Assembly: GCF_029633865.1 (NCBI RefSeq)
Contig: NC_079224.1
Coordinates: 23,368,895 to 23,432,894, forward strand
Origin: Lampris incognitus
Lineage: Eukaryota > Chordata > Actinopteri > Lampriformes > Lampridae
Direction: 5' to 3'
DNA length: 64,000 nt
The notes beneath the pieces were generated by a model, which was not told the DNA's origin, did no database searches, and saw only the letters and a program-made list of their open reading frames with translations. The position numbers and the translations under genes were made by a program. Of this stretch, positions 90 through 23,364 are shown piece by piece. How positions within the stretch are numbered: position 1 is the first letter of the stretch; each line of letters opens with the position of its first letter.

Positions 90-116
90 TTATGATGATG
101 ATGATGATGATGAGAG
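90..116. repeat. (GAT)n microsatellite
   Basis: A short run of GAT triplets. No coding signal accompanies it. Confidence 0.9.
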
Positions 117-743: not shown

Positions 744-804
744 GTAATCATAGCATTGTAAGATTGGTTAAGTACTCCATGCCATGTGTTCCCCAGTTTC
801 ATCC

Positions 805-3236
805 ATAGTGGCCAACTTCAGCGTTCAACTTTATTTCACAAAAATATGAAAAAATACAATTTACACATACATATATAATACACAAAATGGTGTGAAAAGG
901 GACACCCCAAGGAAGCTCAGCAGAGCTTATGGATGGGGGCCCATACTTAAAGTAATTTACGTTAAGAGTAACAGGGGTAAAAGGAAAGAAAATCTACAAA
1001 AATTAAATAATAAAAAAATGTGAAATAAAGTCCTAGCCCTATCATTAGCAAGTTTTTAGAATATCAGTTCTTAATTTATGTTTTAATTTCTTTTTAGAGA
1101 CGTATGGATGATGACATTTTCAAATCGTCACAACGCATTCCACACCAGTGGGCCTTTACATGCCACACCAAGGCTAGTGCATCTAAGCCTGCGCCACTTG
1201 CCCACTGTAAGGTTCTTATTCCTGGTGCTAAATGCATGCGAAGGGAGGCAAATTTGAATGAGGTCACACAGTCTGTCATTGACCCCATAGATAACATGGT
1301 ACATCAAACAAGCATTATGGAAAACATTACATTCAGCAAGCCTTAAAAGACCATAATTGCAGAAAAGGGGGTCTGTGGGAGCACAGACCCCAGACCACGA
1401 TATGGCACATATAACTTTCTTTTGCAGAATCTGTAGTTTTTTTTTAGATGACTGGGATAAGTGTTGCACCAAATAACATTGCAGTAATTGATATGGGGCT
1501 CAAATAAACACTTGTACAAAGTAAGAAGTGCTGCGCATGGGAGAAAATGTCTTATCTTAAAAAACAGACTAACATATTTAGATAATCTTTTTGTTAAAGC
1601 ATCAATATGGCCCTTAAAATTTAAGGATTCATCTATATAGACCCCTAGGAATTTTGTGGACTTTACTCTTTCAATATCATGGCCATTAATTTTGAGACAA
1701 ACATGCTCAGCATTATTTTGATTTTTGTTGGAACAAAACACAATGTAGTTTGTCTTGCTGATATTTAGGGATAATTTATTACATCTGAGCCAAGTGTCCA
1801 TCTTCACCAGCTCCTCGTTTAGAATTTTTTGAAGATCATTTAGACTCTTATGTAACAGGAACAAATTTGTATCATCAGCAAACAATATTTTATGTAAAAT
1901 GTAAGAGGAATTTACAAAGTCATTTATATACAGGATAAAAAACAGCAGCCCTAAAATGGAGAAAAATACGAATGCTGGAGTGTCCTTTATCAATAGCATC
2001 ATTGATTTTTTTCAATGAGTTCAAGAATCGCTATGCATGTGGTGCTCTTTTTCCTGAAGCCATACTGAGACAGAACAGGAATATTAGATTTTTCCAGGTA
2101 ATAACTTAATCTGCTATACACAACTCTCTCTAGTACTTTGAATATTGTAGGCAATGTAGATATTGGATGACAGTTGTGCATATCATTTTTATCACCAGAT
2201 TTAAAGACTGGAACATTTCTAGCAATCTTTGCAATATTAGGCACAATCCCACAAAGTAATGAGAGGTTAATAGAGTAGACAAGTGGCTCCACATTTTTGT
2301 TCACAATGGCTTTAAGAATGTTGCTAGAGATTTTGTCTGCGCCAGCTGTATGTGAACTTTTCATAATCGTGATGATTTTAGAAACTTCATTTTTGTCAGC
2401 TGGCTTCAAGAAAAATGAATTCAAATGATTTTCTTGTAGATGTTGGCTGAAAGTGGCACCCTGTGGTTGGCTGATTTTGTTGGAAAGATTTTCCCCTATG
2501 GAGATAAAATGATTATTAAAGTTATTAGCAAGATCAGTATTGTTAATATCAGCATTATTAATATTGATGCTGGTGCTACTGGCATTTTGTATAATCTTGG
2601 TGTCAGGCAGCACAGCATTTTTACGACCCCAGCTTAGGACTTTGTTTAAAACCTTCCAAGATTTCTTTAAATCCCCCTGTGATGCTTTAATGAGTTCTGT
2701 GTAATAATTTCTCTTACTAGTTCATATAATATGTGTAAGTTTATTTCTGTATTTGGTATAATGTTCCTTATTAGTATCACTAAGGGTTTTAATGTAGAAT
2801 TTATAAAGTTTGTTCTGATGTTTGATGGGTTTTAGGATTCCCTTTGTAAACCAGAAATTGTGATCGCTTCTAACGATCTTTTCAGGTATGTTGCGTTCAA
2901 TGGAGTCTGTTATTTCACTAATTAGAGCATTATATGCAGTATCTGGATCTTTACAATCATAGACTGAGTCCTATGTTATGGTTCGCAGGTTTTACATAAT
3001 TGTAGCAGCGTTTTCTCATTTAGGACTTTAACTTTTGTTTTAGGACTTGAAGCTGTAGTCTTAGCAAGATCAATGAATAACACAATAGCAAAATGATCTG
3101 AAATGTCAGAAAGCACCACACCCGAGTCAATACAGGCATCACGGATGTTTTTGATGAAGTTATCAATGATAGATTTGCTGGTTTTTGTTACTCTGGTAAA
3201 AGTGTTTATGGTGGGGAAGAAAGAAGAGGAATATAA
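805..3236 (-). mobile_element. Non-LTR retrotransposon (jockey/CR1/L2 group), 5'-truncated
   Basis: Minus-strand LINE. Reading right to left, about 2976-3230 gives the end of an AP-type endonuclease (DSGVVLSDISDHFA). About 2000-2640 gives the first reverse-transcriptase blocks (HTAGADKISSNIL, then SQYGFRKKSTT). About 1343-1960 gives the catalytic block with LFADDTNLF and the KLSLNISKTNYIVF block. About 1128-1470 gives the C-terminal block, and an AT-rich 3' UTR ends near 810. The frame is interrupted several times, with the largest gap between about 2640 and 2980, so it is inactive. The 5' part stops where the Penelope element begins. Assignment within the jockey/CR1/L2 group is uncertain. 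Confidence 0.85.
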
Positions 3237-4440
3237 TGTGTTACTTGTACATGGAAGAAGTGGAAAAGAGGGCTCTGATGCCAGGGACACCACCTAGCCA
3301 TTGGTTCAGATTTGTGGATGACACCTGGGTTAGAATTAAATCTCAGCACGTACCACATTTCACCGACCACATTAACTCTGTGGTCAACCACATCAACTTC
3401 ACCAGGGAGGATGTAAAAAATGACAGATTATCATTCTTAGACTGGGAAATTGCAATTGGTGATGGGGGAAATTTGATTGTTGATGTTTACCATAAACCAA
3501 CATATACTGATCAGTACTTAAGGTTTGACTCTCATCCTCAACTAGAACACAAACTAGGAGTCATCAGGACGCTGTACCACCAAGCTGACAACATTCCCAC
3601 CGACACAGCAGCCGGGAAGGGGAGACATCCCACATTAAACAGGCCCTGGTTAAGTGTGGTTATCCTAACTGGGTATTTGTCAAAGCCAGGAAGACGCCCA
3701 AACAGTGCACCAGCCAATTGAAGAGAGGAGAAGGACAACAGCTGCCTAAGTGTAAACCAGTGGTGATTCCATATGTGGCGGGAGTGTCGGAAAAGTTCAG
3801 ATGCATATTTTCCAAACACCCTATCTCAGATGCTTTCAAACCTCAAAACACGCTGTGCCAGAAATTGGTCCACCCCAAGGATTGGATCCCCCAGCACAAA
3901 CAGAGCAATATAGTGTACGCTGTTAAGTGCCAGGAGGATTGCCGTGACTTGTACATCAGGGAAAGCAAACAGACACTGGCCAAGAGGATGATACAATACA
4001 GGAGAGCTAACACGTCAGGCCAAGACTCTGCAGTCTACACCCATCTACAGGTCAGTGGCCACTCTTTCAAGGATGAGGATGTGCACATCCTTGATAGGGA
4101 GGAATGCTGGTTTGAACAGGAAGTCAAAGGGGGGGGGGGCTAAGAGTACATCTGTTGCCATTTTACAATGACGAAATGATATGATTGCAAACATTCGCAA
4201 ATCCTCTGTGACTAGTACACATGGCCATTGTACATTGTAACTGTAGTTAATGGTCACGGCAATTTGCATGTGAACCCAATTGTTGTTTACGGTCATTATG
4301 CCACTGTATTGTTTATAAGGGTGGAGATACCTTCAGTCAGTTGAGACTGAAGAAGTCACTTAGTTGAGTGATGAAACATTTCTCTCAATAAATGTGTCCA
4401 GATGAACTGATTCAAATTTTGGTGATTTCCTTACCTGGAT
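3237..4440 (+). mobile_element. Penelope-like element, 3' half
   Basis: Encodes the end of a Penelope reverse transcriptase (WFRFVDDTWV, about 3300-3336; then SFLDWEIAI and VYHKPTYTDQYL). A GIY-YIG-type endonuclease follows (SNIVYAVKCQEDCRDLYI, about 3905-3960), with a C-terminal [14 protein letters not shown] block to about 4110. The non-coding 3' end (4300-4440) carries a hammerhead-like core and the AATAAATGTGTCCAGATGAA tail seen again near 6.2, 50.8, 52.5 and 57.7 kb. The copy is 5'-truncated and broken. Confidence 0.85.
4347..4376 (+). ncRNA. Hammerhead-like ribozyme core in Penelope 3' end
   Basis: CTGAAGA at 4347-4353 fits the hammerhead CUGANGA box. TCACT and AGTGA (4356-4360, 4367-4371) can form stem II, and GAAA follows at 4373-4376. 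Penelope terminal repeats are known to carry hammerhead motifs. Cleavage by this copy is inferred, not shown. Confidence 0.5.
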
Positions 4441-4569
4441 TATTGAGCGTGCATAAAGACATAAATGTTTACTTTGCTATTTAAATGTGTGCCAGCTCAC
4501 ATTAGCTAGCTACTATGAACTTATGCTAAAGTTACAGATTCCAGTAGCCCACATTAACACCCACTGCTC

Positions 4570-5160
4570 ATTATGGCAATACTTGGGGTCAACTGTCCAA
4601 AGTAACAGGGAGTGCAGAAGAGAGGCGAAGAAGAGAGTGCAGGCAGGGTGGAGTTAGTGGAGAAGAGTGTCAGGAGTGATTTGCCACAGAAGGGTTCCAG
4701 CAAGAGTTAAAGGGAAGGTTTACAAGATGGTTGTGAGACCAACTATGTTATATGGTTTGGAGACAGTGGCACTGACGGAAAGACAGGAAGCAGAGCTGGA
4801 GGTGGCAGAGTTGAAGATGCTAAGATTTTCATTGGGAGTGACGAAGGACAGGATTAGGAATGATTATATTAGAGGGACCGCTCAAGTTGGACGGTTTGGA
4901 GACAGAGCAAGAGAGGCAAGATTGAGATGGCTTGGACATGTGTGGAGGAGAGATGCTGGGTATATTGGGAGAAGGATGCTGAATATGGAGCTGCCAGGGA
5001 AGAGGAAAAGAGGAAGGCCAAGGAGGAGGTTTATGGATGTGTTAAGGGAAGACATGCAGGTGGCTGGTGTGACAAAGGAAGATGCAGAGGACAGGAAGAA
5101 ATGGAAATGGATGATCCGCTGTGGCAACCCCTAACGGGGGCAACCAAAAGTAGTAGTAGT
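4570..5160 (+). mobile_element. RTE-type LINE 3' fragment
   Basis: A stretch at 4667-5134 encodes the C-terminal part of an RTE-like reverse transcriptase ([20 protein letters not shown], then RLRWLGHVWRRD and GRPRRRFMDVLRED). It ends in CCCTAACGGGGGCAACC plus TAG triplets. A longer relative sits at 52.6-53.87 kb with the same end. This copy is a 5'-truncated fragment. Confidence 0.8.
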
Positions 5161-5221
5161 TCATATGGCATACATTAGTGTTATATTACAGTTAAAGTAC
5201 ATTAATTCCTTCCTTAATTAA

Positions 5222-5235
5222 CCTGTGTGTGTATG

Positions 5236-5291
<56 letters not shown>
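5222..5291. repeat. (GT)n microsatellite
   Basis: About 70 bp of nearly pure GT dinucleotides. The Cys-Val reading frame across it is an artefact. Confidence 0.95.
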
Positions 5292-5733
5292 TGTCTCAGC
5301 CAGGTCAGGGTTTCCCAAAACATGGCAGAGATAAGAAAAAAGGTGGACATCAGAACATTTTTGTAGGCTCAAAATGCCACTGTGTAAGTAGGAAGACCTC
5401 TGTAATATTACAAATACTAGCTGAAAAATACTAGTCCATAGAAATTGAATTGAGGGCTAATATAAATGTTCAATAATTGTGCCATTAGACAGCAATAGTA
5501 AAATAATCTGTGAAGGGCAGCAGCAGCAACACACAGAGGGACAGAGACGGGGAGTCTCAGGTAAGGTTTCACAGTTTTAGTCTTGAGAAAATTCCATGTT
5601 TGTGGTCCCCCCTAATTTGTAACAAGATCTGCGCCCTTGGGACTGCACTACAGTTTTGGACCTCGGAGCATGACAAGCTTTGGATTCAAGAAAATTGTCA
5701 AAAACCAGTAATTCTATCATTTATTTTCTGCAC

Positions 5734-8700
5734 CTGTTTGTGTAGCGAGTAGGCAGCCTCCAGTAGGTAGTAATGAAGGCCTTTGTCCAACTTCAGCAAC
5801 CTGAGGGAGAGGTAGACTGGGCCAGGGGGGGGAAAGGTATTCCACAGTGCAGGTAAAGGGTAGGAGACATTGGAACACAGCTGCCAGCCCACCATCTTGG
5901 ACCCTGCAAGGGAAAATTGATGTTGTTTATGTAGTTGTGGTCATTGGAAGATTTGTAAGAACTGTCCCAGTCCACATGTGACCATCTTAAAGCTCTCACT
6001 TTTTGGAAATAATTTCACTGATGTGTTACTAGAGAAATTCATGAATTATCTGATTGATGAGTTTATGTAAATTCAAGCAATTAAATGAAATTGGCATATT
6101 TTGAAAACTGATTCTGTTATTTGCTCTCACCTTTGACATCAAAGCAGAGTATACACACACAACCCAACATATCTATCTTTACGCATGCTCAGTAATACAG
6201 GTAAGAAAATTAAAGAAGGTTGAAACAGTTCATCTGGATACAACGTTTACTGACAGATACGTTTCATCACTCAACTAAGTGACATCTTCAGTCTCAGCTG
6301 ACTGCAGGTATCCACACCCTTATAAACAATACAGTGGCATAACGACCAAAACCACTGACCAGTTTCATATGCAAATTGCCATGACCATTAACTAGAGTTA
6401 CAATGGCCATGTGTACTATTCACAGAGGATTGGGGAAGGTTTGTAATCACAGCATTGTAAGATGGCGACAGATGTACTCTTAGCCCCCCCTGGTTCAGGG
6501 ATGGTCATTCCCTCTTAACATAGATGGCCTCTTTGAAACATATCTATTAATAAATGTTGTATCCAGATGAACTGATTCACCTTTCTTTAACCCAGCATAC
6601 AGACTCAAAAAGCAAAATTCTTTAAGCAAAATTTGCAACGCCAACACAAGCAGTAACAAAACAGCTGACCACAAATTCATAATGGCAATCTGTCAGTAGA
6701 CAAAAGTGAGGGCAGAGACAGTGATGATGGCTAAATAGTCACAATTATCCAGACCAAAGCAGACATAGACCTTAAGATGTAATTCAGTGGTTAAATCTTC
6801 AATACCACAGGCTCAGGCTATAAAGTGAAAATAAAATGACAAGAAAGGTTTATGCAGGTTCAGTTTTCCATGAGAAGGTCAAATGTTAACTGAACAGATA
6901 AAACTGATAATGTAAGCTCAGTGCGACAGTGGCTCAGGAGGTACAGCAGGTCATCTAGTAACTGAGGGTTGCCGGTTCGATCTTTGGCTCCTCCTTGAAG
7001 AAATGTCGAGGTGTCCTTGAGCAGGACACCTAACCCCTAACTGTTCCCGATGAGCTGTTTGTTACCTTGTATGGCTGACACCACCATCAGTGAATGAGTG
7101 TATGTGTGCATGGTTGAATGTGAGGCATTCATTGATTGTAAAGCATTTTGCGTCGCTGTTGCAACCAAAAAAGTGCTATACAAATGCAATCCTATAAAAA
7201 TGCAATCCATTTATAAGCTCAGCATTTATTTACCAGAAACAGTACATTTTAATGTTCATCATTGACAAACTGCAATAATTTCTGTGTATTATTCAAAATG
7301 TTTGTCACAGTATATGAAGCCTTACAGGTCTTTTGTGTGCAGGTGGTCTTTTCTAAACGACTCTTCGGCCCTTTTATCTCTTCTCTGTGGTCTCCACTAA
7401 CTTGAAACACTCGAGAGCTGGAACACAAAAAACTTCACAATGTCATCTATACAATTATCTCATACAATTCTAAAAGCAATACAAATGCCAAAAATGGATA
7501 ACTAGACTAGCAAATAACCACATGCTATTGCATTATAAGTGTTTTGGCAGCAGGTCATTTTTTGACATCCATGCTGCCCTCTTGCTTAGGATGAGGAATT
7601 ACGACAATTTTTGCAAAAATGTCGAATGGAGAATTAGTTGGAAGAAATCTATTAAAGTAATGTTAATATTAAGGCATGGTAACAAGCCTGTCTGATAGCA
7701 GCCCAATAGTTTTGTTTTTGTTTTTGTTTTACAGCGTCTCTGAGTACACTAAAAGTTATGCTAACCATTGTGGAAGTGCAAGGTACTGATCCACCTACTA
7801 GTATGTGCTACATCAGAGTAATTCAAAGCCAAATGTAGTCTTGGAGATACACTGAAATAAAAATGAGTACGAAAAGTGAGAGTTGTCCCTAATTTTGAAC
7901 TAGTTTGGTCAATTGTTAGAGAACAGCATTCATCATTGTTTTTTTATTCATTTCACTTGATATTGACTACAATATTGTAGGGCAGTTTTTTCAAACATTT
8001 ATGATAAGACTGAAAATATTCTCAAATTAAAAACTATTGAGTCATTTCACATCAAAAGAAACTGAAATTTTACCTAAATCATTTGCAAATATTGTTGGTT
8101 GAGATCAAGTATATTGTACACCTACTTCATTAACTACCCATTAAGCTTTTAAAGTAACAATTATTCACTACAGTACATAACAATCTGGCTTAGAAGATTT
8201 GTTAAAAATAGCTAAATTAGTTCTTGATCAGTTGCATAAGCAAGATTCAATTCAAGATTCAGTAATTTATTGCCATATCAATTTTGCAGTTGATTTGGAA
8301 TTTGTTTCGGTGAGCCCAAAGATAAAAGCAAACATATAACTACCCAATACATACAAGGAGTGTCCACAAAAACATACTGTTACAATTATAATTCAGTTAA
8401 TGCAACCATATGGCCCATTCCCTTAAAGTGACAAATTTTATTGCATGTGCTTAAGGAGACTATACATGTACAATCAGTGAAGCACTTAGGATGCGCATTG
8501 CTGCAGTGTAAGTGCTGTTGTGGAAGTGAGATGTTCTGGGTCTTGATACTGTCTTTTACCTGAAGGGAGATGATTGAATAGGGGGTTGGCCAGGTGTGAG
8601 GAGTCCTTTCAAATTTTAAACCTTTCCGCCAAATGTGAATATGGTGTAGTTCAGAAATGACGGGAAGTTTGCAGCCAATTATTCATGAAGCTGTGCGCGC

Positions 8701-11700
8701 AACTCTGTCCTACAGTTTTTTCTCGTGGGCTGTAGAATTGCCACACTGTACAGTTACTAAGAAAGTGAGCACACTTTCTATTACAGCTCAGTAGAACTGT
8801 AACATTTCAACCTTTGATGCTCCAAATTTCCTAAGCTGCCTTAGAAAGAATAGTCTTTGGTGAACTTTCTTCTGGATGGTGGTGAAGTTGTCTTCCCATT
8901 TCAGGGAGGAGGAGATTGTAGTCCCAAATCCAAACTTACCTGAAAGAGACAATGTCCATGAGGTCCTCAGGTGAGTTAAGGGTGATCCTGAGGTCCCGTC
9001 CCTCCTGTAGCTGAACACTGCCATCCAGACTGGTGGAGCTCCTCAGCTCTGAGGCCCACTCCACACCAGCCTGACCCAACACACCGTCCACCCCCATCCT
9101 GGCTGACAGGCCCACATAAGCACTGAAAATAGAGCGAGGAGTTCACCTGTGCTGATAGTCAAATGTAGAGTAGCAGCAGTTACTAATGAAAATGCAAAGT
9201 TTTTGTAAAGTCCCACTCATTATGCAGTGGCCACTCAAATGAGCAAAAACAAATGTGTCTAGGGTCTGCCAATCCCAATAACCACAATGAGTCCACCCTT
9301 AGAGGGAGGAACCTGCCACAAAATTTACATCATACGTGTTTTGTGGTCAGAGCCTTACTGTTTATGGATCAGCAGACAAACAAGTACCTAAATAAAGAAA
9401 TCTAGTTCATGTGCTGCACAAAGGTGCGTAGGCCAACAGGAGCAGAGCTTTGATGGAAAGTCACCGTAGAGAACTTGTGGTTCAAACTATTTCACTAAAC
9501 TTTTCATCTGAAAATTCAGTCTAGACCCAGATATGGAAAAACATGAACAGCTGTGGCTAGGGAAATAGAGGAAGAATCACATACAATTCTAAATTTCAGT
9601 TTGCCTCTAGAAATATTAGTCATATTAACTTTTACATACTTGGCTGTCTACCTCGTCAACAGACTGTTAACACTTTAGCTTCATTATCACCTTATCTATT
9701 CTTCATCTATCACTATAAATTATAATGATAATCAATTGATATGTATTATAATAATTGTGTATTTTGTCTCCCAATTATTTAGATAAAACTCACTTCGGCT
9801 TGATGTAGCCTGCCAGGAAGAAGTGGGTAGCATCCCTATACTTGGCATTGCCCTTCAGACGCAGTGAGAGAAGGGAGGTCATGTTGACAGCCAGTCTGAC
9901 AGGCATACCAGACAGAGATGGCAATACCAACTCTTCTGTCATCAGCACAGCCCTGTGATTCAACTCAATCTCCTGGCCCTGGATGAGAGACGGACAGAGA
10001 GAGTGAGGGAGAGTGGGGTAAAGAAAAAGGAAGAGAACCAGAAAGAGAGAAAAGGCAAGAGCGGGAACTGAGATAAACCTTGAGATAAAGACTGAGTCAA
10101 ATAGACAGCTACACAGAGTAGTGACAGACATACCCTTGGACACAGACTGACTTTATCAGCTACGACAAAAACACTGCTTTCTACTCCCCCCCGCTTTTTT
10201 TTCTCTCCAATTGTATCCGGCCAATTACCCAACTCTTCTGAGCCTTCCTGACCTCTGCTCCACTCCCTCTGCCAATCCGGGGAGGGCTGCAGACTACCAC
10301 ATGTCTCCTCCGATACATGTGGAGTCGCCAGCCGCTTCTTTTCACCTGACAGTGAGCAGTTTCACCACGGGGACGTAGTGTGTGAGAGGATCACGCTATT
10401 TCCCCCAGTTTCCCCTCCCCCCAAACAGGCGCCCCAACCAACCAGAGGAGGCGCTAGTGCAGTGACCAGGACACACACCCAAATCTGGCTTCCCACCCAC
10501 AGATACAGCCAATTGTGTCTGTGGGGACACCCGACCAAGCCGGAGGTGACACAGGGATTTGAACTAGCGATCCCAGTGTTGGCAGGCAACAGAATAGACC
10601 GCCACGCCACCCGGACGCCCTCTGCATTCTACTTTTAAGATAAATCAGCGGTTCCCAATCAGTTCCTTGGGTATCATCCTGTTATGTGAATGTGATGACC
10701 CGTCAGAATAGAAAACCAGCAGTACCAATGGTGTCTTAGGAACGGATTGAAAACCACCGAGAAATACAATGCAACCTTTTTTTTTCTCTGCATACCCTAT
10801 TTAAAGCTTATTGCTCTAGCCTTGAGGAGAACTGTGTGGAAGATACATCTTTTTTCTCAAGAAATTTCAAAACAATATCTGGCAAACAATGGCTTTGTCA
10901 TTTTGCTTGTTACAGTGCTCAGTCAATGTTCATCAGTACAAATGAAAAGTAGCTCTAAGCTACTATATCTGGCAAAATATATTTATTGAGCACTGTCCCT
11001 GTAAAAATACACAAAAAAGTAAACAAATTCTAGTTTATACCATTTCAGAAATATTAGCTTATAGGTACTGCTGGAGCACTAATAAAGAAAGTTTTTCTTG
11101 TGGAGTTTTTCCTCATTCGGGTCTAGGGTCCAAGGATAGAAGGCGTTGTATGTCATATACTGTCATATATCATGCTGATTGTAAAGCCCTTCAGGACTAC
11201 CTTGTGATTTTGGGCTATACAAATAAACTTGACTTGACTTAATTACCACTGCGTTACCTTGAGCAGCCTGACAGCCAGGCCTGCCATACTCAGAGATAGC
11301 TGGTTAATCTGAGTGTAGAAATCGTTGCAGGTAAATGCACTAAGTTCATTACCAAACACCTTCACACCGACCCAACACCTAGGCTTGCTGTCCTCGGCTC
11401 TCCGCCTCCAAGATAACTGGAAAACAGAAAGCAAACATCTAACATGTAAGAGAGGCCTAACCACCAGTTTTTCTTATTGTTGTTCCACAAGTTAATATTT
11501 TCTCATGATCAGTGAAGGAATGTTGCTTGTTTCTGAACGCCCAGGCGAGGTAAATGAACTTAAAAAGCCAAACATGTTGATCAGGAAAAATTATTTATTG
11601 AAGTGCCTATGATGTCCACCAAATGTCAGAAGAACAAACTGTTCCTGAGGACAGCAACATCTGAGTCAATCAAATGACTGCACTAAAAAGAGTTAAAACA

Positions 11701-14700
11701 TTTGTAAAGAAAGCTAATTGTGGTGTAGTGAAAAATCCAAGTTTAAATGTGACATGAAATAGCAACTCAAAGGCTGCAAAACTATCCCAGCCATTACGGG
11801 CACACAGCCACACCATCTAGCAACCAATTTCCATTAGCATACAATTTGAAAACAAGGACTGATCTGATGAAAATGGTGTGTGATTTGATGGATTGTCACT
11901 GAAAATAAAGCTTCATTTCTGGAGGTTACTTCGGGGACAGTGGGGTTCTCAACGAGGCTAAAAAACTTTCCTCTTGAAAGCCACCCCCCTTTTAAGTGGT
12001 CTCTAGTGGCACTTTGCTATGAATATAAATTGGTGCCGGCTGCAACTATCATGCCCGTCATTACTTATACACCACTACTATTGTTGTCTACTATTGAGCC
12101 CTTTTCTACTTGTACTTAACAGCATAATTTTGTCTGTTTTCTGACATATGGCAATGTACAGCCGCACCTACGCTTGATAGGCTCTACATTTTTTCTTGAC
12201 AGCAATTTTCAAATGATTATCTACATTATGAAAACAGCATGTCAAAACCCCATGCCATTAACTCACAATTCCTGTTGCCCACAACACTAATTTCCAATTG
12301 CTTTCACACAAAATAAAAAAGTGCATGTTTGCAGCCCTGTAAGCACAAATGTCATACAATTGACAAAAATCGGTGAAGTCGTGCTAATCAAAATGGATGA
12401 CACCGTTTTCAATTGAACTGTATTACCCTAACATACATATAATCGCGGCACAAATCCTTACAGCAAAATATTAAAAACAATTACTACTCTAACAAGGGGA
12501 GATTACAGTAACGAAATATGGATAATTTAATTTCCTTACATTTGAAAGCAAGCAATCGCACATACAGCCTCGCCTCACAAGTGCAATTTATCAAAAATCA
12601 GTTCCCATAAGCACATTTATACCACAGGAATTCCTTTGTATCGTGTTGCTGAAAATGAAGCATGAACATGCAGTTGTCATATAGGGGCAGGTGGTCTCTA
12701 CCATCTTCCTGTAGAGCATTTAGTGAATTATGCATCTGCAAACTTAAAATGGATACCATGGCTATATCATCAAGCGTTACATTTATGGTGAAACTCCCCT
12801 AGACAAGCTACACATTTCAGCTTATTCTGCTGTTGCATTCTGTAAAATGACTTGGGAGTGTCAGCCAAATGTCTCAATGGAAAACGTGATATAAATCACT
12901 ACTTTAAGTGCATTGATATTTTTGCACGTAGATATGCAGGTCCTGCAGAACTGGCCTTTATCAATTCTTAACCTCTAAAACCAAGCTGACAGGGTAAAAC
13001 CTGCTAAAAGTTGAAAGAGCTGCCCTGTTGGTTAAACACTAGATCACAGAAACACACAACTTATCTTACTGCAACAAGATGCCAGCCTAGTTTACACAGC
13101 TCTTTTACAATTATGAGAAATGCAGCAACCTTACCATAGCCCTGGCTTGGTTCAGGTAACTGCTGGTACCGGATGAACAATCTTCCTCTCCTTCTCTATG
13201 CTCATCATCATCTGCTTTTCTTTTTTTCCTTCTTTCCCTCAGTGGCACATGTCCATCATTATCACTGGCGGGCTCTCGATCAGACGTGTTTGATTGTTGT
13301 GCAAATAGATTCTTCAAAGCTGCTTCAGCATTTTCAATACGAAGGTCAACCTAAAGTGGGAGTCAAAAAATAATATATTCAACATGTCTTGTGAATCTTT
13401 TGTTGTTGTTGTTTTATAAATTGACATCAATACAGCACACTGTCAATTAGTAAGTGTGCATAAGAAAATAGTCTACTTACTTCTAGAAGGTTGTGGGCTG
13501 TACCGTGAAAATATACTGTCAGGTTGGCCATGGTCGATCTTGGTAGAAAGGACTTGGGGGAGAAAACTACAGATCCTTCCTGGTTTGCAATGCCCATACC
13601 TGCAACAAACAAAATTGTCATTACAAAGACAACCTCTGAGCTGCTGGACTGCTGATGTTTACCTTGATAATACACCATGTTCACACAACAGCATCAGCTT
13701 AACCAGTCTCCCTATTCTTTTTCCCCCCCCTTTTCTCCCCAATTGTACCCAGCCAATTACCCCACTCTTCCAAGCCGTCCCGGTCGCTGCTCCACCCACT
13801 CTCTGCTGATCCGGGGAGGGCTGCAGACTACCACATGCCTCCTCCAATACATGTGGAGTTGCCAGCCGCTTCTTTTCACCTGACAGTGATGAGTTTCGCC
13901 AGGGGGACGTAGCACGTGGGAGGATCACACTATTTCCCCCAGTTCCCCCTCCTCCCTGAACAGGCGCCCTGATCGACCAGTAGAGGTGCTAGTGCATCGA
14001 CCAGGACACATACCCACATCTGGCTTCCCACCTGCAGACACAGCCAGTTGTGTCTGTAGGGATGCCCAACTAAGCCGAAGTAACACGGGGATTCAAACCA
14101 GAGATCCCCATGTTGGTAGGCAACGGAATAAACCGCCACGCCTCCTGGATGCCCCCATTATGACCTTTCTATCATATGAATAAAAGACTTGCCAGTCCCT
14201 CTGAGTGACTGCAAGGTGAACAAAGCTGGAGTGTGTTCATACTATAAATCAATTGTTTAATCAATCTTCCCCACATTAGCAGTTGCTATATTCTATACAC
14301 CCAAATATGAAAAAGAGGACTTAACAGTATTGTAAGAATGGAAAACAAGTGTATGGGTACTAGGCCAATCTCCTTAGATGAGAATAATCTGTAAAAGACT
14401 GAACACAAAGCCCTGAGTATTACAGGCTGCTCTAAATACTCCTTTTAGAGCAATATGAGCTACTGCCTCCAGGCTTTAGGTTAAGAAAATTACAGGATAA
14501 ATCGAAAAGACCCTTATAGTCAGTTATTATATAGGCTACAAACGTGTTTGACTGTAGCAGTTAACCCCCCACCCACCCCACCCCCACATACACTTTCTTG
14601 TCATTCTATCTACTGCTCTTTTCATTGTTTATTTAATCCTTCATGTGTTTTTGTGGGTTTTATATTTTTGCATATTGTGCTCATGTTACTGTATATGCCA

Positions 14701-17700
14701 TACTGTAATGGTAGCTTCCTGCTGGGCACCACTAAGATTTAAATGAATGATTCAAATGATGTCTGTGAATGTTCTCATTCAAAATCATTCAAATGAATGA
14801 TTTTACACTTTGTGTGGAGTCAACAAGATGAACCCATGTTTACCTGAGCCAACAGTAAAGTCTGAATAGGAGGAGTATTTCCAGAAGTCGGCTTCAAAGT
14901 CTCTGCTGATGATATCATCAGGCAGTGACTCTATCAGGGACTGCTTCATGGGGTCCTCACTCCTCAGGACATTAGTCAGATGGCTCCACACAAATGAGCC
15001 CACTGGAAAAGCAGCAAGTAACAAAAATGAAGAAAAAATTATTTTTACTGTCAGAACAAGCACAGAAAGCTTATCATATTTGAATGTTTCTTTAATCGAC
15101 AATATGATGAATATTATTTATCCCTGTGGAGAAATTGATGAGCAACAGCAGCTGACAGTTTGTATATCTACACTCACTGGCCACTTTATTAGGCACACCC
15201 GTCCAACTGCTCGTTAACGCAAATTTCTAATCAGCCAATCACATGGCAGCAACTCAATGCATTTAGGCATGTAGACATGGTCAAGACGATCTGCTGCAGT
15301 TCAAACCGAGCATCAGAATGGGGAAGAAAGGTGATTTAAGTGACTTTGAACGTGGCATGGTTGTTGGTGCCAGACGGGCTCGTCTGAGTATTTCAGAAAC
15401 TGCTGATCTACTGGGATTTTCACGCACAGAGAATGGTCCGAAAAAGAGAAAATATCCAGTGAACGGCAGTTCTGTGGGCGAAAATGCCTTGTTGATGCCA
15501 GAGGTCAGAGGAGAATGGCCAGACTGGTTCGAGCTGATAGAAAGGCAACAGTAAATCAAATAACCACTCATTACAACCGAGGTATGCAGAAGAGCATCTC
15601 TGAATGCACAACACGTCGAACCTTGAGGCAGATGGGCTACAGCAGCAGAAGACCACACCGGGTGCCACTCCTGTCAGCTAAGAACAGGAAACTGAGGCTA
15701 CAATTCGCACAGGCTCACCAAAATTGGACAATAGAAGATTGGAAAAACGCTGCTGCGACATTCAGATGGTAGGGTCAGAATTTGGCGTCAACAACATGAA
15801 AGCATAGATCCATCCTGCCTTGTGTGGGGGATATTTTCTTGGCACACTTTGGGCCCCTTAGTACCAATTGAGCATCGTATCAACGCCACAGCCTACCTGA
15901 GTATTGTTGCTGACCATGTCCATCCCTTTATGACCACAGTGTTCCCATCTTCTGATGGCTACTTCCAGCAGGATGACGCGCCATGTCATAAAGCTCCAAT
16001 CATCTCAACTGGTTTCTTGAACATGACAATGAGTTCACTGTACTCAAATGGCCTCCACAGTCACCAGATCTCAATCCAATAGAGCACCTTTGGGATGTGG
16101 TGGACCGGGAGATTCGCATCATGGATGTGCAGCCGACAAATCTGCAGCAACTGCGTGATGCTATCATGTCAATATGGACCAAACTCTCTGAGGAATGTTT
16201 CCAGTACCTTGTTGAATCTATGCCACGAAGGATTAGGGCAGTTCTGAAGGCAAAAGGGGGTCCAACCCGGTACTAGCAAGGTGTACCTAATAAAGTGGCC
16301 AGTGAGTGTATATACAATTTAGGATAGAAAAATTCCACATTCAACATTTCCCTGTTTACTTAACCAATTCCTGAGCTATCAGTTATTCAACACCAATAGC
16401 AAAAGAAACAGCTAACTGTAAGTCAAGTCAATTTTATTTGTATAGCCCAATATCACAGATTACAAATTTGCTTCAAGGGGCTATAACTATAAAATGAAAA
16501 TGGGCAATGTTTTCATATCATAGGTTGATATTTGCAAATATCAATTTCAATGGGTTTTTTTGTCTTCTACAAGCATATTAATCTTTAATTCAGCCCTGTC
16601 TATTTTCAATGAAGTGAGCTGTTCATTGACATTCCCAGCATCTCCTAACACTGCAACACAGAATCACACCTTGGCTGGAAGTCTCGTTTTTCAGAGTCTC
16701 CTTCACCAAACTGAGTACCTCCGGATCAGGGCAGCGTATGAGTTGCTGGTATGCAGCGATCCTGACCTCAGCATCCTCCTGGGAGGAGCGGTACAGCTGC
16801 AACAGCACAGACCTCTGAAGAGAAAATCGGCTGTCAATCAATGGTGTCAGACACCCTCTCTTCTTCTCACCTCTTCACCTCTAACTCAACTCATCGTGAA
16901 CCAATTACACGTCTGTTGTGACACAGGGTCTCATGATATGAGGACTTAACTAAGCAAAGTGAACACATTGCAAATTGAGCAGTCTTTTAAAAAGTGTCTT
17001 TTTAATTATTAAATCTGAGGAATTTAAAAGGGACCTACTTAATATATTGCTCATTTTTGTTACAGCCAACACAATCCAACAGTAAGGAATTTCCAGTCGC
17101 CACTGTTGTGACATGTCTTTTCTCTGTTGACATAAATAGCAGTGTCAGCATTTACTCACATCAGCGGAGCAGGGGATCCGTCTGAAGGCTTGGACAGCAG
17201 CAAGCCGTAGCTCCATTGATGTTGAGTGGCCAAGCACACAGCGGTTTAGCAGAGGGATGAGGCCCACAGCAGACAGACCAGCGTTTCCCACTGATTTCAG
17301 TGCATAAAAAAGCTGTGGGAGATCAGAATTAATGTGGAATGGGCAGGGTTTAGGAAAATTTGTTACAAAGCACTCCCAGTGTGATCTGATAATATTGTGA
17401 TTTTGGACAACTACAATAAATCTTTCTTAGCAACATCGACATTGGTGCAGATCATTAACTGCACCCATCATACCTCTGTCACTCGTGTAGGCTCCTCTCC
17501 TCCACAGCTCTCCTTCAAGATTTCCTGCAGAGTTTGTATGAATGTCTGAACCTGTGGAAGCTGGACACAAGGAGACAGGGACCTCTGGCACAGAAGGTGG
17601 ATCAGGGATGACCCAGCAAGCAGGGCCTTGTTCCGCACCTCTGATATCTCCAGCAATGTCTAATACAAAAAGCAGAGAACTATGTTATGCATTGCTGGGC

Positions 17701-20700
17701 CTATGTCAATACGTTTTCTTTCTCAAAAACTCAAAGAACTGGGTGTGAAACAAACATCTGTAGAGGGATGCTGTCACCTTTATTACAGATTTCAACATGA
17801 CAGATCTGTTCCAACATCATTTTAAACAAATGGTCTAATCAGAAATAAGTAAGTGCACCATTTAGCATCACTGGAACATCAGTCATTAGTATTACTGGAA
17901 CGTCATTGTTCCCATCACAAACACATGGATGCCTACATTGACAGATTCGATGATCTGCGGAGACGGATAGGGGATGAGGGCTATGGCAGTGAGGTAAGAG
18001 TGGGACTGGTCCTCTTCAAGCTCTCTGTTCTTCATCAGCTCAATCAGTAGTAGGATGCAGTTCTCTGATCCACAGGCTGGTAAGGCATCCAACAGCGGCT
18101 GCCTATCCCAACAGAAGAATCAACACAGAGATCAGCTGTCTGTCTAAAGACTATGTTTCTCTGAGGGCTAATAAATCATTACATAACTGATCCCCAAGAT
18201 AAATGCTTTAACATACACAACAGAGCTATAGACGCAGACCCTACAAAATACTGTATATACTGTTATTAGATTCTGCTGCAGAGAAGTGTAGGACCAAGGA
18301 GGGAACACTATTCAGTTCTAGCCTGTTTGGTGATCTGTAAGAGAGGAGTAACAGATGTCTTTGTGCATGACTGGCAGTGTTGGCTCTGTATTATTTATTT
18401 CTCAGGAGAGCCCATAGACAGGCAACTTTTGGGCTTTGACACATTTAGCCCATGACAAGGTATTATGCAGTTTTCCATCGATGCAGAGCACAACTGTTGT
18501 GGGATTTTGTTGTGACCAGAACAATACGGGATCATAGTCTCAAATGTATAGCTGGAAGTGGGCCTAGTATTGACTGCACATTTTAAACTGAGTAACTAAC
18601 GTTACATATCATTCATGTAATGTCCAGACTGAATGCTTAACACTGACATTGTAAGATGGTTGCTTTTGCACCAGTTCAACAAAGAAAGCTAAAGTTAGCT
18701 CATCTGAATCATGTTTTTAGCTAACCAACGACCCAGAAAACCAAGCTGAAGCGTCAGAAACACTAAAAAATAAAAAATAAATGTATGTATTCAGCATGTC
18801 TTACTTACATCTCTTGATAGAATTTCTGTGCCAATTTGCTTACCAATGACCATTATAATGTGAAAAAAAAAGAAGCAAAATCTTTCATGTTTTATAACGG
18901 CACATACTTTTAGATGCACTCACTCACGAACATTTTTGGAGGGGTCCCAAACCCCCCGGTCCCCCACCCTACCAAAGTGTTCACAGCTGGTGTAGCTAAA
19001 TGACAGTTTGTGAGTGAGTGAATGAGAGGCCTGGGTCATGAGGTGCTCCACGTTTAAAAATGTGACTGAAACAATTCTCCTGGGGTAGACGAGGGAGCGT
19101 TGACAGATAACACAAAGATATTTTTTGTAATACTCTGAGGGAAGGACACTGCGGTGGAGTGAGAAAACACAGACCAATCGTTGCGGCACTTGAAGGAGGT
19201 TTCTTGCCAGAGTGTCTCGAGTTCAGAAAGCGACAGATCTCTCAGCTGGAATGCCAGTCGAACAAACTGTTGGGACACCTATGAAAAAGTAAAGACATAG
19301 AAAATGTTCATCCTTGTTGTAGATATTCATCTTAAATATAAACACCATGTGGATTACAGTTTGCCTTTAATAAATCTGTCTGACAAAACAATGATTTCCA
19401 TCTAGGACTTTAAAATCAAGTAATTTCACTATACAGAAATGTAAAGTGACTCCCCCCAATTGTACTTGGCCAATTACCCCACTCCTCCGAGCCATCCCAG
19501 TCACTGCTCCAACCCCTCTGCTGATCTGGTGAGGGCTGAAGACTACCACATGCCTCCTCCGATACATGTGGAGTCGCCAGCCGCTTCTTTTCACCTGACT
19601 GAGGAGTTTCACCAGGGGGACGTAGCGCATGGGAGGATCACGCTATTCCCCCCAGTTCCCCCTCCCCCCCGAACAGGCACCCCGACCAACCAGAGGAGGC
19701 ACTAGTGCAGCAATCAGGACACATACCGACATCCAGCTTCCCACCCGCAGACACAGCCAATTGCGTCTGTAGAGACACCCAACAAAGCCCAAGGTAACAC
19801 GATTCGAACCGGCGAGCCCCGTGTTGGTAGGCAACAGAATAGACCGCTACGCTACCCGGACACCCCGTAAAGTGACTTTTTAACTGACTTTCCAATTTGA
19901 TCTCTTTCATAAAATCAGATTTGGTCCGGCCAACTCCTGTCAAAAGAACAATAATAATTGGCTCATATAAAGACAAAACTTGGAGGAAGTCAAACCTCAG
20001 GATTTAAACACAAACGAAAGACCACAGGTTTGGCTGAGTGACAGCTCACATGAAGCCAGACATTGTCACTTGTCAAAGCATAAACCTACAGTACCTATAG
20101 GCTGGTAAACAATGCTTCACACTTCAGTTTTTGTCCTTTAGTCTTTAATCTCCTGTTTGTAATAACACCATTGCCACAACAAATGGGGGTAACTCTACGG
20201 AGACTGTATGTAGGGAAAAATCTAAAAGGGGGGGGTCAATCTGTCTGTTGCAACTGACAACTACCTGTTGCTGATCTGTGGTCAGACCACATAACATCCT
20301 CACAGTTTCGCTGGCCTGCTGAGGTGTTGCAGCCCTGCCTTTGCCCGGCCCTGCAGCCTCCTCCTCCTCAAACTGCATGCCTGTTAGCACACCAGGGCCC
20401 AATGAATCTGAGGGAGTAAGGAGAGGAAGATGCATGTCTCACAAACACAATGGTGAATATCATATAGGGTAGAACCTGTAGCGATCCACTTTTTTTTTTT
20501 TTTGGATTTTTCCCCCATTTTCTCCCCAATTGTATCCATCCAATTACTCCACTCTTTCAAGCTGTCCTGGTCACTGCTCCACCCCCTCTGTCATTCCAGG
20601 GAGGGCTGCAGACTATCACATGCTTCTTTTCACCTCACAGTGAGGAGTTTCACCAGGGGGACGTAGCGTGTGGGAGGATCACGCCCCCCCAAACAGGTGC

Positions 20701-23364
20701 CCTGATCGACCACAGGAGGCGGTAATGCAGTGACCAGGACACATACCCACATCCGGCTTCCCACCCGCAGACATGGCAAATTGTGTTTGTAGGGACGCCT
20801 GACCAAAATTGAGGTAACACAGGGACTCAAACCGGCAATCCCTGTGTTGGTAGGCAACGGAATAGACCGCTACGCGGCCCGGACACCCAGTGATCCACAC
20901 TTTTATACTCTATGGTACACTAGAGGCACAGCCATGGATAATCGTAGTGATGATGCTGTTTGCAGCCAGTTATGCAAAGACACTAACCTACTGAGGAAGG
21001 TGTCCCTGGCTGGGCTCTAAGCAGGATAAGCCTTGACGTAGTTTGTATCTTCAATGGTACTGCAGTTGCTGACCAAGTCAGCATAGATACAGTCTCCGTA
21101 CAGTTGACTTCTTCCATAACTAGGGTCCCAAAGCGCTGAGCACACTGGAGCTTAGAATCCACCGTCTGGACAAAAAATGGGCAAGAAAGAGTCTATTGTG
21201 AAGTAAATATATCAAATGTAACAAAATAAGGTTCACTGTTAGGAGTTTGATTGGGAAAACTTACTGAAGTACTAATCCCAATATAGCTTGGTAAAGAAAC
21301 CAAATTATTGTCTGCTGTGGAAAACTCAAGACAAATAAATGCAAACTGATGTGATGACTCAGCAACTGTTTTTCAAACTATTATAGCATGCTAAGACAAA
21401 AAGGGAAGGGGAGTATCTGGGTCTTTACTAATGTCTCATTGTCCCAACTTCTGTTTCTGAAGGGAGGAAGAGGAAGGGCAAACTCACAGTATCTTCTGAT
21501 AGAGATATAGACCGTGGCCAGAAGTCTGACAATCTGTGCTGCTGGCATTGTGTCAAATCCCTCATCTTGATCAGTACAGCTCCTCGCCTCTCATATTGGC
21601 TGTTGCAGGTCCCATACATGTCAGTCTGAGAGAAGGGCATTAAGACAAAGTCAGACATTCCCCATGTGCACACACTACATTATGGGAGGCTGATGATGAT
21701 TATAATGTCAGATATTAGTTGTAGTAGTAGTAGCAGTAATAGCAGTAGTAGTAGTAGTAGTAGTAGTAGTGTCAGCGGTGGAACAGTGGTGGCAGTAATT
21801 GCAGTATTCTAAAACTGAAATTATAACTAAAAAGCTACCATACTGCATGAGATGCTATCCCTTAACACTAGTTTTCTGTACAGATTATAAGTTGACAACA
21901 TATGTAAGCTATTAATGCTATAACATCTTTGCAATGTAGCAAAAACTGCACTTGAGAGTATTTCTTAGTTTGTATTTCTGGGAACGATCTCCATCATCCA
22001 CCCTCACCTCTTTGACTATTTCCCATGTGGAAGCTGTGTAGGAGGTCTGGAGCATGCTCAGTAGAGCTCTCTTAACATTGAGGGTCCACACCTGCTCCCC
22101 CTCCTGCGGACAGAGGGCTGTGACCTTTCCCCCCTGAAGGGAGAACTTGAGGCGCGTTTTCTCCAGTGACTCCCTGGGAAACAGGAACACCAGATGAGTC
22201 CTCCAAGACAATAACCTACGCTAGTAAGATGTATCACACTCAAAGGAAGAATGGCTTTCCGAGATGGTTCCGGCTTGCGCTTGGTTCTTAAACTGTTGAC
22301 GCAGTAAATAAAACCAGACAAATCCACACAAAAACTGACAGATAAAAGTTAGATTCATTTATTAATTCATTGCAAGCACAATGAATTACACAAAGTATAA
22401 AACTGAAATAAGTTTGATCCCTGAAATACCTCAAACTCTTTAAGCGTTGCACAGAATGTTCCTTCTGTGGAGAAAGCCGTTTTATCTGTGGGTTCCTAAT
22501 CTGGTGGGAAAGCACAAACACATGAGCTAAAACATATGAATTTTTACAGTGCTTTTATATATGCATATGCATATACCATAGAGTACTTCAAAATACTAAT
22601 TGAATGACAGCTGCTTCAACCTTCTAGGATAAAAACTTTTTGGTCAAACCGTTTACCTGCATGATCAAAAGACACTTGGAGATCACATCGACATCCACTA
22701 CACAGTCTAGAGCCAGTCCGTTCCTGCCAGAGTTTGAGCCATGTAGGGTTGTAGTTATTGTGGTGCTATACCTATACGTATATCTCACTCCTTTCTGGTA
22801 GGGGAGGTCAGGGGAGGGAAATCCTATGGATATCAGGCAACAGACAATTTAGAATCAGAGAAAACAAGAAAAATGTCTCAGTAATACGATTCCTGCTGTT
22901 CAGCTATATATAAAATAGCCTGTTGTATGCTGCAAGCAATAACCTGCACTAGCTACACAATGCATTTTAAAATGACAAAAAAATATTAAAGTATTTGTTA
23001 CTGAGCATGCAGTTTATTCTGATACTATATGCCCGACATTGGAAAACAATAAATATAACCTCTCACCAGCACAACTAGAATCACAAAGACGTTGGTCCAC
23101 CTGAAAACAGTCCCCTACAAATGGAAGTATAATAATTAAGAGAATAGCGTTTTAAAAGCATTTGTTAAATTCTTCATCCACGGTAAAACATGACATACAG
23201 TATAAATCCGATGCTCACGGTGATGCCATTCTTTCAGTTAAATCAGCAAGTCTGCCTCAACAGGAGAATCAAACAACACACCAGAAAGTGGCAGGAAACT
23301 TACCATGAGTAAGGATAAAAATAAGTGTAACATGCAGACAATTAAGCAACGAGGACACAGCCAT
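5734..23364 (-). CDS. ApoB/apolipophorin-like large lipid transfer protein, N-terminal 21 coding exons
   Basis: Secreted lipid carrier of the vitellogenin/apoB family, inferred from domain order and cysteines. Exons (minus): 23304-23364, 23067-23114, 22657-22823, 22430-22500, 22008-22173, 21488-21625, 20988-21165, 20265-20407, 19175-19278, 17937-18102, 17474-17659, 17160-17312, 16670-16814, 14844-15002, 13481-13599, 13135-13350, 11258-11416, 9794-9978, 8940-9122, 7326-7417, 5734-5903. All phases agree, giving about 1003 residues with no stop. The start gives a hydrophobic signal peptide (MAVSSLLNCLHV...). ApoB-type cysteines: C77/C87, C178/C198 (YGTC...RDLTQC), C225/C239, C369/C374 (CGSENC). 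A helical repeat region spans about residues 330-640, then lipovitellin-like sheets (LVLPSLSGMPVRLAV). RERRKKRK lies at 706-713. The 3' exons are outside the window or beyond the repeats at 1-5.7 kb. Weakest splice sites: the exon 9 donor GTCTGT and the exon 21 donor GTGCAG. It could be a fast-evolving apoB paralogue or a separate apolipophorin-like gene. Confidence 0.85.
6205..6590 (-). mobile_element. Penelope-like element 3' end
   Basis: Reverse complement of the same 3' region as the element at 3.2-4.4 kb: the end of the GIY-YIG reading frame near 6500-6540, the conserved non-coding stretch, and the hammerhead-like core at 6262-6291. A short piece of the tail in the opposite orientation follows at about 6540-6590. 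It lies in intron 20 of the lipid-transfer gene. Confidence 0.75.
6262..6291 (-). ncRNA. Hammerhead-like core in Penelope end
   Basis: On the minus strand: CTGAAGA (6285-6291), arms TCACT/AGTGA, then GAAA (6262-6265). Flanking GGATAC and GTATCC can pair as an outer stem I, with an internal loop between them and the core. Activity is not established. Confidence 0.45.
6920..7205 (+). mobile_element. tRNA-derived SINE
   Basis: The head has pol III box-like sequences (TGGCTCAGGAGG as A box, GGTTCGATC as B box). The body is 'TGTCCTTGAGCAGGACACC', and the tail reads AAAGTGCTATACAAATGCAA, as in widespread fish SINEs. It lies in intron 20 of the lipid-transfer gene. Confidence 0.7.
8237..8937 (-). 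mobile_element. Rex1-type LINE 3' fragment abutting a splice donor
   Basis: The minus strand encodes the end of a Rex1-like reverse transcriptase: FGTTISSSLKWEDNFTTIQK, RLFFLRQLRKFGAS, then TASxIIGCKLP. The 3' end is near 8237 with a repeated TTGAATCTTG. Two in-frame stops are visible in the reverse-transcriptase part. The recognisable LINE sequence starts within a few bases of the exon 19 donor of the lipid-transfer gene. Confidence 0.75.
10202..10620 (-). mobile_element. tRNA-derived SINE, copy 1
   Basis: On the minus strand it starts with a tRNA-like head (B-box region around 10555-10575) and ends in a CAATTG-rich, A-rich tail near 10205. It is the same family as the copies at 13.7, 19.5, 20.5 and 60.8 kb. 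It lies in intron 17 of the lipid-transfer gene, sense to the host gene. Confidence 0.75.
11125..11241 (+). repeat. LINE/SINE 3' tail fragment
   Basis: Ends GGGCTATACAAATAAACTTG plus ACTTGACTT, a common fish retroposon tail. Related tails occur at about 16419-16480 (minus) and 51990-52045 (plus). Confidence 0.55.
13216..13239 (-). other. Dibasic RERRKKRK stretch, possible convertase site (in exon 16)
   Basis: Codons for residues 706-713 of the lipid-transfer protein. RERR and RKKR both fit the furin consensus R-X-K/R-R. The stretch is followed by an acidic, probably exposed segment (ADDDEHREGEED). Insect apolipophorin precursors are known to be cut at such a motif at about residue 700-720. 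Cleavage here is inferred. Confidence 0.55.
13719..14156 (-). mobile_element. tRNA-derived SINE, copy 2
   Basis: Same family and orientation as the 10.2 kb copy: tRNA-like head at the right end, A-rich tail at the left (T-rich on the plus strand). It lies in intron 14 of the lipid-transfer gene. Confidence 0.75.
15171..16308 (+). mobile_element. Tc1/mariner transposon, complete ends, defective transposase
   Basis: A 1138-bp element in intron 13 of the lipid-transfer gene. Its ends CACTCACTGGCCACTTTATT and the inverted copy are flanked by TA. The transposase is on the plus strand. The N-terminal helix-turn-helix starts at 15318 (MGKKGDLSDFERGM). The second helix-turn-helix follows (TRRTLRQMGYSSRRP). 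The catalytic region shows FQQDDAPCH and LNPIEHLWDVV. The coding region is split among frames, so it makes no full transposase. The TA target duplication and terminal repeats are intact. Confidence 0.9.
16419..16480 (-). repeat. Retroposon 3' tail fragment
   Basis: CAAGTCAATTTTATTTGTAT followed by AGCCCAATATCACAG: the reverse complement of the tail type seen at 11.2 and 52.0 kb. Confidence 0.5.
19451..19866 (-). mobile_element. tRNA-derived SINE, copy 3
   Basis: Same family. The tRNA-like head at the right end includes GGTTCGAATC on the minus strand (about 19802-19812). It lies in intron 8 of the lipid-transfer gene, sense orientation. Confidence 0.75.
20489..20888 (-). mobile_element. tRNA-derived SINE, copy 4
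   Basis: Same family, with a clear poly(A) tail on the minus strand (T run at about 20490-20502). It lies in intron 7 of the lipid-transfer gene. It lacks part of the central region compared with copy 3. Confidence 0.75.
21717..21769. repeat. (TAG)n microsatellite
   Basis: Imperfect TAG/CAG triplets in intron 5 of the lipid-transfer gene. Confidence 0.85.

Follow-up and report, generated by a model that had tools for sequence, protein, structure and literature searches.

The window analysed here, a stretch of 64,000 nucleotides from Lampris incognitus (RefSeq assembly GCF_029633865.1, contig NC_079224.1, positions 23,368,895 to 23,432,894; the contig is called C17 below), carries on its minus strand the 5' part of a large lipid-carrier gene with likeness to apoB, from now on the window gene. 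An earlier note, made from the letters of this DNA, had placed this gene at 5734..23364, and these coordinates proved exact, the ATG lying at 23364 and the last donor within the window at 5734; they cover the 5' part only, as the gene is incomplete at 5734. The same note had counted twenty-one phase-consistent exons: the phase consistency stands, since all internal acceptors are AG, all donors are GT and the phases agree, whereas the number of exons is 20 (Table 1). Once spliced, exons 1 to 20 give a product of 987 residues with no stops, while the other two frames of this product hold 55 and 44; in 1000 block shuffles no stop-free version was obtained, the lowest count being 29 stops. The observation made in the note is confirmed. 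Although its fast divergence and the many retroelements in its introns might suggest a decaying, disused gene, all of the 20 exons are open, the splice sites are intact, the other two frames are rich in stops and the large exons found further downstream (see below) are open too, which makes decay highly improbable.

The N-terminal lipid-transfer module noted before was recovered by Pfam as Vitellogenin_N at residues 29-568 (232 bits for a cut-off of 24, 1.4e-68; positions 1-589 of the 590 of the profile), followed by Vit_open_b-sht at residues 613-898 (153 bits, cut-off 23.7, 1.6e-44), all of it within the stop-free product; both matches span almost the full length of their profiles. Compared by phmmer with proteins of solved structure, the window protein scored 144 bits with human apoB-100, 55 with lamprey lipovitellin and 29 with human MTP; judged by the sequence of its module, it is a member of the large lipid transfer protein superfamily. 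The apoB-type cysteine pairs described in the note are likewise present, as ten cysteines (61, 71, 162, 182, 209, 223, 353, 358, 450 and 485) are invariant in an alignment of three rows, the other two being human apoB and one apoB of the same fish. Exon 20 aligns by eye with the start of the apoB domain DUF1081 (its cysteine pair and the next strands). The profile of this domain (PF06448) gave no match in the window protein by hmmscan at E up to 1, and none of its 11 matches in the genome falls on C17. A continuation of the domain was also searched for among 955 minus-strand open reading frames between -50000 and 5740 (negative numbers are window coordinates that run on into the DNA to the left), using profiles built from the apoB exons of this fish; the best E was 0.58, a non-significant value.

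Table 1. Features of the window gene, in window coordinates (negative numbers lie to the left of the window).
Feature	Position	Strand	Remarks
Exon 1	23304..23364	-	ATG and signal-peptide-like start MAVSSLLNCLHVTLIFILTH, suggesting secretion
Exon 2	22657..22823	-	Vitellogenin_N begins
Exon 3	22430..22500	-	
Exon 4	22008..22173	-	LNVKRALLSML, similar to apoB LNIKRGIISAL; PF01347 match in the whole-genome search
Exon 5	21488..21625	-	YGTC...DLTQC, similar to apoB YGNC...DLGQC
Exon 6	20988..21165	-	
Exon 7	20265..20407	-	
Exon 8	19175..19278	-	
Exon 9	17937..18102	-	LPACGSENC, similar to apoB LVQCGQPQC
Exon 10	17474..17659	-	
Exon 11	17160..17312	-	
Exon 12	16670..16814	-	PF01347 match in the whole-genome search
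Exon 13	14844..15002	-	Vitellogenin_N ends
Exon 14	13481..13599	-	Open beta-sheet domain begins
Exon 15	13135..13350	-	Contains the basic stretch RERRKKR
Putative furin-type site RX(R/K)R (RERR 690, RKKR 693)	13219..13239	-	Predicted cleavage; consensus from the part available of PMC1783640
Exon 16	11258..11416	-	
Exon 17	9794..9978	-	
Exon 18	8940..9122	-	Open beta-sheet domain ends
Exon 19	7326..7417	-	
Exon 20	5734..5903	-	Last exon of the gene found in the window; by eye similar to the start of DUF1081
Putative long intron after exon 20 (part)	1..5733	-	Full of retroelement remains
Likely continuation of the gene	about -18400 or -24800 to -76511 (C17:23292383 to about 23350500)	-	

Relatives of the gene were looked for in the whole genome (1.48 Gb). 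PF01347 gave 29 matches, 18 on C3, 7 on C18, 2 on C21 and 2 on C17, both of the latter being exons of the window gene (Table 1). Two of the C3 loci match lamprey lipovitellin at 40-43% and by this likeness are vitellogenins; of a third C3 locus, near 101.15 Mb, only part of the sequence was retrieved. Four copies of apoB were found, three on C18 and one on C21, whose identity to human apoB is 43.8-45.1% in filtered tblastn rows and 42.2-44.3% in unfiltered ones, the latter spanning 772-848 of 923 positions; all 11 DUF1081 matches of the genome lie at these loci, and on both grounds the C18 and C21 genes are true apoBs. The three C18 copies stand side by side on the minus strand (C18:16211610-16298918), with 92% identity between the lipid-transfer modules of two of them, and by their sequence this cluster is a recent local duplication.

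The window gene showed 21.7-22.7% identity to the five apoB rows (unfiltered) and 25-26% in the three-row alignment. The earlier note had judged that the protein differs from apoB more than a fish orthologue should, a judgement borne out by these values (22-26%, versus 42-45% between the apoBs of this fish and human apoB) and now accounted for, because the real apoB orthologues of the genome lie elsewhere, on C18 and C21. Two collections, genome_contigs and viral_contigs, were also scanned for relatives; the 49 and 31 pattern matches obtained included 0 confirmed ones, with no invertebrate apolipophorin among them.

The DNA to the left of the window was examined over 160 kb of the same contig. 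Exon 20 and the next convincing exons are separated by ~24-30 kb rich in retroelement frames, beyond which the minus strand holds beta-rich open exons, including frames of 379 and 310 residues. As likely downstream exons we take beta-rich ones from about -24800 to -47100 (perhaps from -18400 on) and a few more to -71200, and as likely VWD and C-terminal exons those from -71424 to -76511. A retrained exon chaining, whose training rested in part on the known exons 2-20, recovered 19 of these 19 at both penalties tried, the lower penalty adding a single false exon (19525-19478), and proposed a phase-consistent chain through the beta-rich exons. Because this chaining also strings in retroelement reading frames, above all between 5734 and about -18000, only selected downstream exons are taken as likely and no full-length gene model is given. 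A first chaining run, which used a fourth-order model trained on the window gene and on the apoB of this fish, was over-fitted and missed obvious exons; apoB codon statistics of the fish did not fit the window gene.

Before motifs were counted and PDB and Pfam were searched, downstream exons were picked by eye and joined, those resembling retroelements being excluded. Along 1547 joined residues the motif LxHSxxxLxxRGLPxN repeats; the expression H[NSQ]..L...GLP occurs 8 times, compared with a mean of 0.23 and a maximum of 3 in shuffles, a count that is descriptive and not a blind test since the expression was written after the motif had been seen. In 3544 residues of the large apoB exons of this fish the same expression occurs 0 times. 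A search of NCBIfam, which covers prokaryotes, gave no match.

A VWD domain is encoded by three exons at -71424..-73612 (8.5e-15, profile positions 5-155 of 156), about 95 kb from the ATG, and is followed by a cysteine-bearing C-terminal exon at -76386. In contig coordinates the VWD exons start with C17:23297253-23297468. Long simple repeats extend from -75466 to -76011, just upstream of this C-terminal exon, and exon borders are less certain there. Over the 160 kb, 11 minus-strand matches were obtained with a VWD-like pattern; by eye only that at -71824 was convincing, and one more, at -73613, is the exon that follows within this domain. When the genome was searched with a 201-residue VWD piece, 14 rows were obtained: the four strong ones are its own exons on C17, two weak ones, situated 9-11 kb downstream from the C3 vitellogenin modules, are probably the VWDs of these vitellogenins, and none falls on C18 or C21, where the apoB loci are. 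A whole-genome VWD search carried out exon by exon (127 matches) missed the VWDs of both the window gene and the vitellogenins of this fish, and is thus no evidence of VWD absence anywhere.

Strand, phase, order and architecture suggest that the N-terminal module, the downstream exons and the VWD probably form one gene. It could also be that the N-terminal gene ends soon after exon 20, yielding a module-only protein of ~1000 residues like MTP, and that the downstream exons and the VWD belong to another gene: reading through past the donor gives VQKINDRITGF and an in-frame stop near 5701, and the 24-30 kb gap with its many retroelements, the failure to find a DUF1081 continuation and the middle part without a database match would all suit a short protein. 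However, the domain in which exon 20 ends continues over further exons in apoB, the GT donor of exon 20 is followed by phase-compatible exons on the same strand, and one convincing VWD in 160 kb is in keeping with a lipid carrier, as opposed to a mucin or FCGBP gene with its several VWDs. We consider a module-only protein quite unlikely.

The consensus RX(R/K)R is found in the window protein only as RERR (690) and RKKR (693), within RERRKKR at 690-696, a basic and strong furin-type stretch which precedes the segment equivalent to apoB YLRILGEEL. Residues 22-696 amount to 75.5 kDa, and a cut at this stretch is predicted to release an N-terminal chain of ~75 kDa and a very large C-terminal chain. 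The consensus is absent from human apoB (residues 50-972), from the rows of two of the fish apoBs (C18a and C21), from both vitellogenin rows and from the MTP piece; lamprey lipovitellin has it elsewhere (RLRR, 547). The papers cited here were available in part, and what is taken from them applies to those parts. The shrimp protein has its RX(R/K)R cleavage site at residue 725/728, the insect apolipophorin site being similarly placed, and the shrimp apoCr-II subunit is of ~74 kDa (PMC1783640); in insects furin cleavage gives chains of ~80 kDa (apoLp-II) and ~240 kDa (PMC8545670).

A tree was built under LG+C20+F+G4 from ten rows: the window gene, human apoB, the four apoBs and two vitellogenins of this fish, lipovitellin and MTP. 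Only 535-661 of 907 positions are covered by the vitellogenin rows; the third vitellogenin locus, having no usable row, was dropped. In the filtered rows the fish apoB and vitellogenin sequences had been selected by their local similarity to the query; as such a choice works in favour of apoB cohesion, the analysis was repeated with unfiltered rows. Human apoB and the four fish apoBs formed a clade that excludes the window gene with support of 100/100, both in the filtered (813 columns) and in the unfiltered version (827 columns), and of 100/99 when MTP was left out; the placement firmly within teleost apoB against which the earlier note had set its reading did not occur. Grouping the window gene with the fish apoBs was rejected by the approximately unbiased (AU) test (p-AU 5.4e-7 filtered, 1.1e-8 unfiltered), and so was grouping it with the C21 apoB (p-AU 1.3e-7, filtered). 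Between apoB and vitellogenin, the best tree put the window gene on the apoB side, weakly (84/83 filtered, 64/58 unfiltered). In the columns which separate apoB from vitellogenin, the window gene agrees with apoB in 11, with vitellogenin in 7 and with neither in 14 of 32 (filtered), and in 10, 6 and 11, respectively, of 27 (unfiltered). Branch lengths were 1.37-1.39 for the window gene, 0.57-0.62 for human apoB and 0.13-0.16 for the fish apoB stem.

On this evidence we think it probable that the window gene encodes an old lipid carrier other than apoB, whose architecture would most likely be that of apolipophorin II/I, with module, furin-type site, beta belt and C-terminal VWD. The earlier note had left two readings side by side, an apoB duplicate that had changed rapidly and an apolipophorin-like lineage that fish kept and mammals lost. 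The former gave way to the AU tests; the latter is supported in part, the position outside the apoB clade and the VWD on the same strand speaking in its favour. What we claim is a gene most likely built like an apolipophorin and lying outside apoB, which falls short of a proven apolipophorin orthologue. It suggests that vertebrates retained a lipoprotein lineage usually regarded as belonging to invertebrates.

In the APO family (apoB, apolipophorin II/I and apolipocrustacein) the lipid-transfer module and DUF1081 are common to all members, and a C-terminal VWD is described for vitellogenin, clotting protein, apolipocrustacein and apolipophorin (PMC1783640), while vertebrate apoB is described as having no VWD (PMC8545670). 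Like insect apolipophorin II/I and crustacean apolipocrustacein/dLp, the window gene puts the module first, has RX(R/K)R ~700 residues in with a resulting chain of ~75-80 kDa, and would end in a single VWD, provided that this domain is part of it; unlike them, it has no DUF1081 that the profile recognises and it lies in a vertebrate genome. This likeness is one of published descriptions of features and not of sequences compared. With vertebrate apoB it shares the module, the cysteines, the open beta-sheet and, by eye, the start of DUF1081, but its identity is about half of that between human and fish apoBs, it falls outside the apoB clade, its GLP repeat is absent from the large apoB exons of the fish and no VWD row was obtained at the apoB loci. 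Vitellogenin and lipovitellin resemble it in Vitellogenin_N, the open beta-sheet and a terminal VWD (again, if it belongs to the gene), and differ in their lower score and in the best tree, which lies weakly on the apoB side. The MTP large subunit shares the homology of the module (29 bits) but, unlike the protein proposed here, ends after it and stays in the endoplasmic reticulum (ER).

Several observations weigh against an apolipophorin-like carrier. The tree holds no invertebrate apolipophorins. That one transcript joins the VWD to the module, across a gap of some 24-30 kb after exon 20, is inferred from their arrangement on the same strand; among solved structures, the VWD scores best with FCGBP, mucins and vWF. 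The 1547-residue middle part gave no PDB match up to E = 10 and the scanned 619-residue part of the downstream chain gave no Pfam match, so that the kinship of the middle part with the belt rests on strand, phase and repeat. No exon continuing DUF1081 was found and, at profile level, the gene lacks the DUF1081 that APO family members and apoB have in common. Moreover, one of the fish apoBs (C18b) shows RQKR in the same interval as the site of the window gene, and the DNA of two of them (C18b and C18c) reads NDRQKR just before a probable donor, a possible processing site, in the interval of the furin cut of apolipophorins, that human apoB, C18a and C21 do not show. Because two apoBs of the fish probably carry RQKR, a weaker motif, in this interval, the furin-type motif is non-diagnostic, and as a sign of an apolipophorin the basic stretch is suggestive only.

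That shared motif would also fit a very fast evolving duplicate of teleost apoB whose long branch (the window-gene branch is indeed long) pulled it to the base of the tree, as would the multiple apoB copies of this genome and the ten apoB cysteines kept in the module. The columns that distinguish fish from human apoB point the same way, the window gene having the fish state in 13, the human state in 4 and neither in 52 of 69 (filtered), and 13, 7 and 73 of 93 (unfiltered); such a lean nevertheless fits a position outside apoB, because the longer human branch predicts it. A site-heterogeneous model rejects the grouping with the fish apoBs in both versions, the vitellogenin state in 7 of 32 columns (6 of 27 unfiltered) is seldom expected of a young apoB copy, the downstream GLP repeat has no counterpart in the large apoB exons, and the VWD, if part of the gene, is a domain which vertebrate apoB is reported to lack (PMC8545670). 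An apoB duplicate is, in our opinion, very unlikely.

The tests also let the grouping of the window gene with the vitellogenins stand (p 0.154 filtered, 0.27 unfiltered). Together with the support of 64/58 for the apoB side in the unfiltered rows and with the VWD common to vitellogenin, this could speak for a diverged vitellogenin paralogue without phosvitin, or for an equally old branch of its own, outside the APO family. Such an origin appears unlikely in view of the pairwise scores (144 bits with apoB versus 55 with lipovitellin), the apoB-type cysteines kept and a best tree that lies on the apoB side in both versions of the rows.

In this superfamily the module forms a lipid pocket, which MTP loads, and the beta belt wraps the particle. 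For the apolipophorin-like carrier favoured here, a single transcript, spread over at least some 95-100 kb of DNA, would comprise the module, the beta-rich exons and the VWD. The protein would enter the ER, where the MTP complex would help the module to acquire lipid and the beta belt would wrap the growing lipoprotein particle; a furin cut in the Golgi after about residue 696 would then give the ~75 kDa chain and the large chain, both staying on the particle. The VWD end might serve in folding, dimer formation, or receptor or surface binding, and expression would be expected in liver, intestine or yolk syncytial layer. From what is established for this superfamily, the function is most likely the assembly of a secreted, furin-processed lipoprotein particle, with secretion, loading, cleavage and tissue all presumed.

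We give somewhat less than an even chance to a further and more tentative proposal: alongside apoB, a true orthologue of the arthropod apolipophorin II/I would have survived in ray-finned fish, and possibly in some other vertebrates, and have been lost in tetrapods. If so, there would be a third class of large circulating lipoproteins, furin-cut and VWD-ended, and apoB and the apolipophorins would be old paralogues instead of one-to-one counterparts. Accounts of vertebrate lipid transport name apoB, vitellogenin and MTP as its three large lipid transfer proteins. The same three are given for vertebrates in the available part of PMC1783640. A fourth, apolipophorin-like carrier in fish would redraw the counterparts between invertebrate and vertebrate lipoproteins and bear on the time when apoB lost its VWD end, and would make the window gene a testable candidate for the lipoproteins of fish plasma and yolk. 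Automatic names such as 'apolipophorins' may already exist in gene-prediction databases. A vertebrate gene of this kind was met with neither among the titles and abstract openings listed in searches of the open-licence PubMed Central literature nor in the parts available of PMC7431520 and PMC9569473; by their accessible parts, PMC12263248 merely cites the classical apolipophorin/apoB paper and PMC6071982 merely cites the apolipocrustacein paper.

Several retroelements are found in the window beside this gene. At its left edge, within the putative long intron, 1343-5134 contains several reverse-transcriptase-like remains. The G+C content of the window is highest (0.54-0.59) where the minus strand holds, at 29575-33468, a long terminal repeat (LTR) retroelement; its long open pol frame encodes reverse transcriptase, RNase H and integrase, and the frame beside it we take to be gag-like. 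Pieces of RNase H and integrase on the plus strand at 35627-39315 mark a second retroelement. Finally, an open frame at 42304-42897 on the plus strand ends in a first C2H2 finger (Pfam 1.1e-4, just below the cut-off); we assume it to be exon 1 of a gene for a Kruppel-like factor from the KLF9/13/16 group, and it is a possible synteny anchor.

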